Below, one piece after another: positions 4,765 through 46,377 of a DNA stretch of 64,000 bases. Below the pieces are notes generated by a model. It made no database searches. It worked only from the letters and a program-made list of their open reading frames with translations, and was not told where the DNA came from. The DNA lies in contig JAJDHV010000003.1 in NCBI GenBank assembly GCA_030266365.1, forward strand, positions 1 to 64,000, given 5' to 3'. Within the stretch, counting starts at the first letter, position 1; each line of letters begins with the position of its first letter. This stretch comes from Synergistaceae bacterium OttesenSCG-928-I11. GTDB taxonomy: Bacteria > Synergistota > Synergistia > Synergistales > Synergistaceae. The position numbers were made by a program, and so were the translations under genes.

Positions 4765-5391
4765 ATGAGCATTGGCGTTCTGGGGAAAAAAGTGGGAATG
4801 ACGCAGGTCTTCGACGAGGACGGCAGGGCGGTTCCGGTGACGGTCATCGAAGCTGGCCCGTGCCCCGTGGTCGAGATCCGCACCCCGGAAAAAAATAACT
4901 ATTCGGCCGTGCAGCTCGGATTTGCCGACGAAAAATCTTCTCATGTAACAAAACCGAAGAAGGGTTATTTCGACAAGCAGGGTGTAGCCCCGAAGCGTTG
5001 GCTTCGCGAGTTCCGTGTCGACGATGCGTCGCAGTACACAGTCGGTCAGGAAATCACGGTCGAACTGTTTGCGGGCGGTGAGATCGTGGATGTGCGCGGA
5101 ATCAGCAAAGGCAAAGGATACGCCGGCGGCATGAAACGTCACCATTTCGGCGGCGGCCCCGCCAGTCACGGCGCATCGAGAATACATAGGAAACCGGGCT
5201 CCAGCGGCGCGAACAGCTATCCGGGCCATATTTTCAAGGGCAAGAAGATGGCGGGCCACATGGGCGGTGAGCAGGTCACTACCAAGGGCCTCACGGTCTT
5301 CGCAGTGGACGCGGAGAACAATCTCATTCTGATCCGCGGTTCTGTACCCGGCGCGAGCAACTCGCTCGTGCTCGTGTATAAGACTGCGTAG
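4765..5391 (+). CDS. rplC: 50S ribosomal protein L3
   Basis: L3, an early 50S assembly protein, 208 residues. The ATG at 4765 follows AAGGAG (4751-4756) and gives [20 protein letters not shown], the family N-terminus; the in-frame TTG at 4741 lies upstream of that binding site. The loop reaching the peptidyl transferase centre ([17 protein letters not shown]) and [10 protein letters not shown] are present. Overlapping order rplC-rplD-rplW-rplB follows. Confidence 0.96.
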
Positions 5392-43312: not shown

Positions 43313-44797
43313 ATGGCAAATCCGAGCGAAAAACCAACGAAAAACACGGCGAAGGAACAACCGCGCGAAGCAGCCAAACCGCCTCGCGCCGAGAATAAAA
43401 ACCGCAAGGTCGGTATCACGGAGACGGGGCTTCGCGACGCGCACCAGTCGATCATGGCGACGCGTCTTCGCACGGAGGACATGCTGCCGATCTGCGAGGC
43501 GATGGACGAGGTCGGATACCACTCGCTCGAGATGTGGGGCGGCGCAACGTTCGACTCCGCCATGCGCTTTCTCGAGGAGGATCCCTGGGAGCGCCTCCGC
43601 GAGATCCGCAAGCGCGTCAAGAAGACGAAGCTTCAGATGCTCCTCCGCGGCCAGAATCTGGTCGGCTATCGCCACTACGCCGACGACGTCGTCCGCGAGT
43701 TCGTCAAGCGCGTCGTCGCGAACGGCATCGACATTGTCCGTATCTTCGACGCCCTGAACGACCTCCGCAACATGGAAATCGCGGCGGACCAGGTGAAGCG
43801 CGAGGGTGCGCACCTTCAGCTCTCCATCTCGTACACAATTTCGCCCGTTCACACACTCGAGCTCTTCGCGAAACAGGCGCGCGACATGGCGGATATGGGT
43901 GCGGACTCCATCTGCATCAAGGACATGGCGGGCCTCCTGACGCCGGTCGCCGCACGTTCGCTCGTCCAGGCAATCAAGACGAAGGTCGACCTTCCCATCC
44001 AGCTCCACAGCCACTACACGAGCGGACTCGCAGCCATGGCCTACCTCGACGGCCTCGAGGCGGGCGCGGACGTCTGCGACTGCGCCATCTCCCCCTTCGC
44101 GATGGGCACCAGCCAGCCCGCGACGGAGACCATGGTGGCAGCTCTCGCCGGTGGCCCGCTCGACACCGGCCTGTCACTCGAAAAACTTCTGCCGGTCGCC
44201 GAGCACTTCACGAAGCTCAAGGAAAAGTACAAGAACATCATCATGGGCGTCTCCGGTGTCGACATCAACATCCTGCTCTACCAGGTGCCGGGCGGCATGT
44301 ACTCGAATCTCCAGAGCCAGCTCAAGGAGGGCAACTCCCTGCACAAACTCAAGGACGTCCTCGAAGAGGTTCCGCGCGTCCGACAGGAGATGGGCTACCC
44401 GCCGCTTGTGACCCCGACGAGCCAGATCGTCGGCACGCAGGCTGCGATGAACGTCATGGTCGGCGAGCGCTGGAAGGTTATCCCGAAGGAGGTCAAGCAG
44501 TACTTCCTCGGCCATTACGGACGTACGCCCGCGCCGGTCGATGAGGCGATTCAGAAGAAGGTCATGGAGATGGAGGGCGAGACCCCGATCACGACTCGCC
44601 CCGGCGAGAAGATCGCACCCGAGATGGACAAACTCCGCGAGGAGGTCGGCGCATGGGCGACACAGCCGGAAGATATCCTCTCCTACGCCATGTTCCCGCA
44701 GGTCGCCAAAGACTTCCTGCCCAAGAAATTCGCCCGCGAGACCAAACAGAACGTCGGACTCGACGATCCGATCGCAGAGGGTTCGTACCCGGTGTAA
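43313..44797 (+). CDS. oadA: Oxaloacetate decarboxylase alpha / carboxyltransferase, without biotin domain
   Basis: 494 residues. TIM-barrel carboxyltransferase of the PycB/OadA family: VGITETGLRDAHQSIMATRL, EMWGGATFDSAMRFLEEDPW, LLRGQNLVGYRHYADDVV, ICIKDMAGLL (the Lys is probably the carbamylated metal ligand) and LPIQLHSHYTSG with the metal His pair. A Lys/Glu/Pro-rich N-terminal extension of about 30 residues is unusual. The protein ends soon after the conserved carboxylase domain, with no biotin attachment motif (MKM), so a separate biotin carrier is needed and is not encoded here. Confidence 0.9.
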   Translation: MANPSEKPTKNTAKEQPREAAKPPRAENKNRKVGITETGLRDAHQSIMATRLRTEDMLPICEAMDEVGYHSLEMWGGATFDSAMRFLEEDPWERLREIRKRVKKTKLQMLLRGQNLVGYRHYADDVVREFVKRVVANGIDIVRIFDALNDLRNMEIAADQVKREGAHLQLSISYTISPVHTLELFAKQARDMADMGADSICIKDMAGLLTPVAARSLVQAIKTKVDLPIQLHSHYTSGLAAMAYLDGLEAGADVCDCAISPFAMGTSQPATETMVAALAGGPLDTGLSLEKLLPVAEHFTKLKEKYKNIIMGVSGVDINILLYQVPGGMYSNLQSQLKEGNSLHKLKDVLEEVPRVRQEMGYPPLVTPTSQIVGTQAAMNVMVGERWKVIPKEVKQYFLGHYGRTPAPVDEAIQKKVMEMEGETPITTRPGEKIAPEMDKLREEVGAWATQPEDILSYAMFPQVAKDFLPKKFARETKQNVGLDDPIAEGSYPV

Positions 44798-44802
44798 GGA
44801 CA

Positions 44803-44998
44803 CAGGTCGCGTGGCTCTGCCCCGCACCCCGGAAGGGGTCGGCGACCCCTTCACCCCATTCATAAGACCAAATTAAAGGCCCGAGATTTTTTTGCCGCTC
44901 TGAGCGGCAAAAAAATCTCGGGCCTCTGTATTTTGATTTTATGATGGAGGTGCAGGAGGCGCTGCCTCCTGCCGGGTGCGGGCGGAGCCCGCGACCTG
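44803..44998. repeat. Large imperfect inverted repeat between convergent genes
   Basis: About 96-base arms centred on the terminator at 44901. Both arms read CAGGTCGCG, GGCTC(T/C)GCCC, GCACCC, a hairpin, CACC, TCATAA, CAAA, then the shared terminator GGCCCGAG. The second hairpin is AAGGGGTC-GGC-GACCCCTT in the left arm and GCAGGAGGC-AGC-GCCTCCTGC in the right, so paired bases changed together. A degenerate relative follows the glycyl radical enzyme gene (26668-26710). Confidence 0.8.
44878..44924. terminator. Perfect 47-base palindromic terminator
   Basis: GGCCCGAGATTTTTTTGCCGCT, loop CTG, and its exact complement. It lies between oadA (plus) and the deacylase gene (minus) and can form on either strand; it is the core of the larger inverted repeat. 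Confidence 0.85.
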
Positions 44999-45003
44999 CG
45001 CCT

Positions 45004-46377
45004 TTACTTTCGCTCGTAGAAGTCGCCGACCGGTTCCGGGGAGAATTTTCCGTCCCGAAGGGTGACCTTGCCGCCAACGACGACGAGTTCGAGTCCGGTC
45101 GGCGGTGCGAACGGCTCCTGAAATGTTGCGTTGTCGACGAACGTTTCGGGGTTGAAGACGATGACGTCGGCGATGGAACCTTTAGCGAGGCGTCCCGCGT
45201 TTTCAAGGCGGATGCGGTCGGCGGGCATCGTCGTCATTTTTGCGAGCGCGTCCTGCCAGGTGTAGCCGCGTTCGCGCAGGATGCGCAGCGCGCGGGGGAA
45301 GGTGCCGGCGATTCTGGGGTGTGCGCCGCCGCCCGTGTAGAGGGCGTCGCTTGCGACGATGCACTTGGGGTGGGCGAGGCAGTTTTCGACCTCTTCCTTG
45401 TCCATGACGTGTGCCACGATGAGGTCCATCGGCTCTTCGGTGCGCATTTTTGCGAGCGTCTCGAACGTGAGGCGTTGGCCTTTGAACTGGCCGGATACGG
45501 CTTCGAGGGCTTCGGGGCCTTTGCCTCGCCAGCGTTCGACAAAGCCGTCGTCGTAGACGGCCGATCCCGCCTTGGCGCAGAAGGCGTCGTAAGGGTAGCA
45601 GTCGAAGCAAACGTCGAGACCTTCTTTCATGGCGGCATCGATGACGTCCATGCAGGTTTGCGTGTTGTACATCGTCATGCTTCCGAGGTGCGAGACCTGG
45701 AGGCGGACGCCCGTCTCGCGGGCGAGGCGTATGACCTCCTCCACGGCCCGGACACAGCGGTCGTCGTCGTAGCGGATGTGGACGGTGATCAGCCGGTCGT
45801 CGAACGCCGCGACGACGCCCGCGAGCGCCTTGATTTCGTCGTACGTCGCGCCCGGCGCGTACTCGAGGCCGAGCGAGAGGCCCATGGCTCCGCCCGCGAG
45901 CGACTCGCGGAGCAGGGCCTTCATTTTTTCGACTTCCTCCGGCGTTGCCGGGGTGTAGCGATCTTTGTGGCCGATCTCCTCGCGCAGCATGCAGTTGCCG
46001 ACCATGTAGGAGAGATGGAGCCACGGTTTCGTGCGCTCGGCGCGGGATTTGAAGAAGTTCGGCCCGCTGCCGCAGTGTCCGGCAACGGCGGTGGTGACGC
46101 CCTGGCGGATCAGCGCCTGCTGGACGGTGTCCGGGTCGGCATAGTATTCGTCGTGAATGTGGCTGTCGACAAAGCCCGGCGTCACGTATAGGTCGGTTGC
46201 ATCGAAGACGAAATCCGCCTCGGCATCCGTGTCCGGTGGTAGAATCGAAAGAATTCTGCCGCCGGAAATCGCAACCGATGCGGGTTTCGGCGATGAGCCG
46301 TCCTTCATGCCGAAGAAAGTACCGCCTCGTATGAGGAGTTCTGCGCGCACCATCTTGGAACGGTCTTCGGCAGTCAT
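45004..46377 (-). CDS. N-acyl-D-amino-acid deacylase family amidohydrolase
   Basis: 457-residue metal-dependent amidohydrolase of the D-aminoacylase group. Metal ligands: HxH in GFVDSHIHDEYY, the Cys in VAGHCGSGP that bridges metal in D-aminoacylases, His in LITVHIRYD and in QVSHLGSM, and Asp in IVASDALYTGGG. The C-terminal beta domain RLAKGSIADVIVFNPETF is typical. Probably releases D-amino acids from N-acyl or cyclic precursors. Shares direction with the M20 peptidase 39 bases upstream, suggesting an operon. Confidence 0.88.
   Translation of the reverse strand: MTAEDRSKMVRAELLIRGGTFFGMKDGSSPKPASVAISGGRILSILPPDTDAEADFVFDATDLYVTPGFVDSHIHDEYYADPDTVQQALIRQGVTTAVAGHCGSGPNFFKSRAERTKPWLHLSYMVGNCMLREEIGHKDRYTPATPEEVEKMKALLRESLAGGAMGLSLGLEYAPGATYDEIKALAGVVAAFDDRLITVHIRYDDDRCVRAVEEVIRLARETGVRLQVSHLGSMTMYNTQTCMDVIDAAMKEGLDVCFDCYPYDAFCAKAGSAVYDDGFVERWRGKGPEALEAVSGQFKGQRLTFETLAKMRTEEPMDLIVAHVMDKEEVENCLAHPKCIVASDALYTGGGAHPRIAGTFPRALRILRERGYTWQDALAKMTTMPADRIRLENAGRLAKGSIADVIVFNPETFVDNATFQEPFAPPTGLELVVVGGKVTLRDGKFSPEPVGDFYERK

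Follow-up and report, generated by a model that had tools for sequence, protein, structure and literature searches.

The window analysed here comprises the first 64,000 nucleotides of contig JAJDHV010000003.1 from Synergistaceae bacterium OttesenSCG-928-I11, an inhabitant of the gut. In it, a gene for an oxaloacetate-decarboxylase-type alpha subunit (PYC_OADA, HMGL-like; 43313-44797, + strand) faces an amidohydrolase gene (Amidohydro_3; 45004-46377, - strand). The two are convergent, as the initial annotation had stated, with stops at 44797 (+) and 45004-45006 (-), and the 206-bp gap between their stop codons is filled by a near-complete nested palindrome of 196 bp (44803-44998, no strand), imperfect over its whole length and laid out as left arm, linker, central palindrome, linker and right arm. 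Matched to its own reverse complement, it gives 80% identity (E 1.3e-37), and for a 221-nt stretch the folding energy is -154.2 kcal/mol, where dinucleotide shuffles give -80.4 +/- 5.5 (z = -13.6; none of 200 shuffles as stable). The inverted repeat first recognised by eye of the sequence is therefore genuine, with its arms where they had been placed, and a chance palindrome is ruled out by this z value together with the many genomic copies described below. The C-terminus of the decarboxylase (SYPV*) is native and kept in relatives, so the element did not create its stop codon.

The single-stranded fold of the element is closed by a stem, inside which two hairpins project laterally and a third forms the centre. 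The outer arms (44794-44811 and 44990-45007) are complementary at 83%; the left side of the outer stem, TAAGGACACAGGTCGCG (44795-44811, +), begins with the stop codon of the + strand gene, and the right side, CGCGACCTGCGCCTTTA (44990-45006, +), ends in that of the - strand gene. The left arm is a two-hairpin unit (44805-44857, +; 68.4 bits, E 1.0e-12 with the arm covariance model) with hairpin 1, GCGTGGC-TCT-GCCCCGC, at 44809-44825 (+, one mismatch) and hairpin 2, GAAGGGGTC-GGC-GACCCCTTC, at 44832-44852 (+). The right arm is a second such unit (44947-44996, -; 45.4 bits, E 2.6e-7 with the same model) and holds, in + strand letters, hairpin 2, GCAGGAGGC-GCT-GCCTCCTGC, at 44952-44972 (-) and hairpin 1, GCGGGC-GGA-GCCCGC, at 44978-44992 (-); both hairpins 2 were placed from sequence and fold. 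The arm sequences of these inner hairpins are unlike and the pairing is intact in both, just as had been noticed at the outset. Between the arms lies a perfect 24-bp palindrome with an AT-rich inner part (44877-44925), the halves of which (44877-44900 and 44902-44925) are complementary at 24 of 24 positions across a 1-nt gap. It scores as terminator-like on both strands and has a T run 5' of the stem and an A run 3' of it. Its tails, TCTGTATTTTGATTTT and TTTAATTT, are T-rich yet interrupted; of the perfect terminator palindrome that had been proposed, the perfection stands, but the likeness to a terminator is only moderate.

The genome holding the window (G000) is a Synergistaceae MAG of 163 contigs, 55.6% complete, in which blastn found 27 matches to the element, several of them at contig ends. 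Its placement agrees with the matches of the decarboxylase gene, most of which were in MAGs of Synergistaceae and related Synergistota (68-90% identity). A covariance model of the arm (R1), built from 12 aligned arms with the two-hairpin structure assigned, found 41 arms in G000, 91 in the 96% complete genome of the relative G016 and 23 in G065. R1 matches occur in 21 of the 53 genomes of the family Synergistaceae, and across the phylum Synergistota the arm model places the element in 36 of 188 genomes and 17 of 63 genera. The search with one arm that the initial annotation had advised thus gave the opposite of the adverse outcome it had named, namely no more copies and poor pairing in relatives: copies are many and pairing is retained. 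The spread is patchy, four genomes of the genus g12 having at least 104, 23, 1 and 0 copies. Ten unrelated genomes together gave 1 weak match. Of 297 genomes sampled from the phylum to which a deltaproteobacterial MAG belongs, 5 had matches; four loci were inspected, and each is a single arm.

Several further occurrences were noted along the way. In that last phylum, solo two-hairpin arms are abundant in at least 3 genomes (13-17 scored matches each), and no mirror arm was found at the inspected loci (L268-L271). A solo arm closely resembling a G000 arm lies at L266:1501-1547 on a small mobilizable plasmid of 9 kb with a mobV relaxase gene (NZ_CP120985.1), recorded as Streptomyces sp. Alt3; possibly this plasmid is a carrier between hosts, or the record is mislabelled. 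The same two-hairpin arm is also present on IMG/VR viral contigs with unnamed hosts (L165:3302-3408; L166:1546-1655 and 5149-5340; L167; L168), and the architecture is therefore not confined to Synergistota. Inward arm pairs occur on two of these contigs, L165 and L166, and the pair at L166:5149-5340 encloses a long central palindrome. Within G000, contigs C11, C12, C75, C117, C120, C122, C126 and C154 carry copies no more than about 120 nt from a contig end, which suggests that assembly breaks at the repeat and that the real number of copies exceeds the count; the repeat may help to fragment metagenome assemblies.

The members of the family share a fixed plan. An arm consists of two GC-rich hairpins over about 53 nt, with the consensus GACCGCGGGGC..GACCCC, and the close arm pairs examined are all inward-facing (about 68, none outward): 14 '+-' pairs in G000, 25 in G016 (none reversed), 18 in G050 and about 11 in G063. 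The two gene ends had been thought to carry a copy each of one 3' element; the arms are indeed of the same type, but they are halves of one composite element and not independent. Elements fall into size classes of about 110, 148 and 190 bp (ranges of about 107-118, 143-159 and 169-197 bp), with an AT fraction of 0.26-0.29 in the arms and 0.58-0.76 in the centres. The centres are interchangeable, AT-rich and palindromic throughout, and vary in sequence by subfamily. G016 elements end in the terminal inverted repeats CCTCRAACC..GGTTYGAGG, and the ends of G000 elements are paired copy by copy. Solo arms and derivatives of 50-60 bp also belong to the family, as do collapsed copies in which one hairpin 2 is held in common (L057, L059). 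As a rare break of the two-arm plan, the left arm at L184:2810-2987 (G016 contig C57) is tandemly duplicated ahead of the right arm. A second repeat, AACAGGCTG..TTTGACAAGGCTGAATGGCTGATCAAACCTGTTTTAACGCTTCACCCTTTAGGC, is apparently recurrent in G016 and lies near several elements (L010 on C36, L175 on C26).

Pairing is maintained in these arms despite extensive sequence change. Among 139 arms (135 distinct), the stems carry 347 double against 39 single-side changes, and 95.5% of cells pair, in an alignment which was fitted to the model and in which pair counts accordingly favour structure; in slid controls the covariation signal is gone. Stem mismatches comprise 44 G-T and 54 A-C, with no G-T excess. 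A tolerance of G-T above A-C would be expected of an RNA read in one direction; stems that are almost purely Watson-Crick fit the upkeep of a palindrome at the DNA level at least as well as selection on RNA, and the mismatch pattern also fits RNA roles on both strands. An indel in G063 is likewise paired across the centre (TTTGATTTTCGCCC/GGGCGAAAATCAAA versus TTTGTTTTCGCCC/GGGCGAAAACAAA). In G000 and G050, the complementarity reaches beyond the element, the 18 nt outside both arms being complementary copy by copy, well above the level reached with flanks taken from other copies (0 of 20000 permutations in each genome); examples are L037, with CAGCGATTGAAAATCAGGACC versus GGTCCTGATTTTCAATCGCTG, and L287. 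Such copy-specific flanks were not found in G016. Two origins are conceivable: insertion of the element into hairpins that were already there, or outward growth of the palindrome at its site.

Evidence for movement comes from G016. Identical 5-mers lie outside both element ends in 7 of its 25 copies (TTGAT, TCAAA, ATATC, CCCGC, AATTA, TGATG and ATCAC, at offsets 14-20), whereas 1.0 is expected from mismatched pairs. Such a count was reached in 3 of 20000 permutations, a somewhat optimistic figure since the offset window was picked after the sequences had been inspected; at inner and outer control offsets, direct repeats do not exceed expectation. One G016 site is empty in the relative G055, where the insertion point can be aligned on either side (left TTATGATT..TTGA, right AAGCAT). 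Target-site direct repeats were not seen in the G000 or G050 copies, and the mobility of the window copy is therefore deduced from its relatives. A TCGTA direct repeat that flanks the window copy at offset 17 was dismissed as chance, its left copy lying inside the native, conserved SYPV* C-terminus. As to the mover, searches of G016 with the arm and the end motif found no transposase between ends, and the other copies of the end motif there are short hairpin derivatives or chance. An autonomous copy with distant arms was also considered and rejected, as the two '+ .. -' gaps examined in G016 (C70, C36) hold ordinary genes and no transposase.

Nearly all copies are intergenic. Those of G000 lie at a median of 11 nt from a stop codon and 34 nt from a start codon, by gene positions from a home-made codon-usage caller with which single distances may be off; 8 of 9 copies in tandem gaps are closer to the stop, and beyond both ends the first 10 nt have a T fraction of 0.45. 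These features, with the terminator-like centre, make a role as bidirectional terminator plausible in G000 on sequence grounds, and the window copy may end transcription of both flanking genes. In G016, the bias towards stop codons is weaker and copies occupy tandem and divergent gaps in proportions near background; the divergent-gap copies do not fit a terminator role. The suggestion of a 3' element at each gene end is partly borne out, by the stop-codon proximity in G000, but not as a rule: tandem and divergent gaps are occupied too, which leads us to reject a strictly 3' end element, and the two arms form one unit.

We propose that the window palindrome represents a mobile element of Synergistaceae that is dispersed, non-coding and non-autonomous, akin to MITEs or REPs and of a nested-palindrome type, and we give this reading a probability of about 0.75. 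Its dispersal, fixed geometry, size classes and patchy spread are directly observed, and so are the 5-bp target duplications in G016 and the empty site in G055. The element would be mobilised in trans by a putative transposase recognising its ends, in the G016 lineage probably through DDE-type cut-and-paste transposition. The complementarity of the arms could be renewed at the DNA level whenever replication switches template from one arm to the other; this would explain both why paired changes lack wobble intermediates and why the inverted flanks are specific to each copy. In G000, the window copy might in addition double as a transcription end for both convergent genes, a weaker proposition. 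The initial annotation had offered selection on structure or a mobile palindromic element as alternatives. Many copies, patchy spread and, in relatives, target duplications and an empty site speak for the mobile element; the covariation is extensive, but the mismatch counts do not single out selection on RNA structure.

The most serious competitor, which we hold to be possible but not favoured, is a structured RNA or 3' UTR element (a bidirectional terminator, an mRNA 3' stabiliser or an RNase barrier) kept by selection on the RNA fold and amplified through its usefulness at gene ends. The strong fold and covariation, the stop-codon proximity and T-rich surroundings of the G000 copies and the centre that is terminator-like on both strands would all follow from it, yet wobble changes are rare and do not exceed A-C mismatches, G016 copies occupy tandem and divergent gaps at near-background proportions, a single genus spans copy numbers from 0 to more than 100, and target duplications and an empty site indicate transposition. 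A known RNA family was rejected, as Rfam at gathering score gave a tRNA alone in the window, and ten copies of the element had no more than weak sub-threshold matches. Far less probable is a REP/BIME (REPIN) family moved by a TnpA-REP (RAYT, HUH tyrosine) transposase. Short hairpin units, inverted pairs, extragenic location and high copy number do recall REP dimers (PMC3733652), and the arm-carrying genome G021 has a match to Y1_Tnp (the RAYT family); against this, a search for Y1_Tnp genes found none in either G000 (55.6% complete) or G016 (96% complete, with 91 arms), neither the GTAG nor the CGTC tetranucleotide tag stands at the foot of the arm consensus, and 5-bp target duplications such as those in G016 are not a TnpA-REP feature. 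Seen at this single locus, with its converging genes and T-rich tails beside the central hairpin, the palindrome might suggest an ordinary lone bidirectional terminator, or chance; we give this reading practically no credence, as it is refuted by the 27 blastn matches and 41 model arms in G000 and by the spread in genomes of the family.

A narrower question is the origin of the inverted flanks in G000 and G050, which may stem from host intrinsic terminators: the element would have inserted into the loops of these older hairpins and parted their two halves. Flanks with T tails, such as AAGAGTCAAGACC/GGTCTTGACTCTTTTCTTT at L059 and GCCGGACC/GGTTCGGCCTTTTTT at L054, look the part, no permutation in 20000 matches the flank pairing, and REP dimers are known to sit within target palindromes (PMC3733652). 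We nevertheless regard this origin as somewhat unlikely, given that the flank pairing often extends the end motif TCAAGACC/GGTCTTGA, as would palindrome extension by template switching. Going further than the mobile-element reading itself, one might speculate, with still greater reserve, that the palindrome renews itself: template switching would perfect the inserted element and pull neighbouring host DNA into it, and the palindrome would in some hosts merge with or replace the native terminator after each gene and so become a genome-wide bidirectional terminator, with the centre swapped like a cassette.

Synergistota thus harbour a repeat family that is abundant yet absent from Rfam. With copies by the hundred, it offers a test case for whether selection on RNA or template switching of DNA lies behind paired changes in hairpins. 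If the element ends transcription, a mobile element would supply many gene ends in these bacteria. The family was not found in the open-access papers searched, also by arm sequence strings (the sole match was an unrelated virus paper), and its novelty rests on this search, which is short of a full review, and on the lack of an Rfam match.

Template switching has been reported to create and maintain hairpins in which, as here, compensatory changes arise together and without wobble intermediates; that account concerns RNA hairpins in general, not a mobile repeat family (PMC8794818). With REP, BIME and REPIN elements and GTAG/CGTC-tagged dimers (PMC3733652, PMC3116915, PMC2817692), the Synergistaceae element shares the size of its hairpin units (about 20-60 nt), the occurrence of solo copies alongside inverted dimers, and a bias downstream of genes; some REP dimers also lie inside palindromes (PMC3733652). 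It differs in that its unit is two hairpins, not one, in its single dimer orientation, and in having 5-bp target duplications (in G016) but no RAYT in G000 or G016. Rhizobium intergenic mosaic elements (RIME) are intergenic too, and are composed of hairpin modules over about 100 nt. BOX and SPRITE elements are intergenic composites of this modular kind and length as well (cited in PMC10969869), and all three resemble the Synergistaceae element in these described features. A further close parallel is with the prokaryotic MITEs (Correia, ERIC, Chunjie, QMITE1/2) reviewed in PMC10969869, which are likewise below 500 bp, non-coding, intergenic and dispersed, have terminal inverted repeats and decaying direct repeats, come in graded truncated copies shading into REP-like hairpins and form a stable stem-loop in the transcript. 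Unlike them, our element has GC-rich arms (AT 0.26-0.29) and is AT-rich in its centre alone, is a nest of palindromes over its whole length, and has no parent IS among the sequences found. In size, lack of coding capacity, multiple dispersed copies and terminal inverted repeats, the family agrees with MITEs, the direct repeats being present in G016 only. Because its size, copy number and terminal repeats are those of MITEs, and the REP features looked for (the foot tag, and RAYT in two genomes) were absent, we class it broadly with the small palindromic repeats that are non-autonomous.
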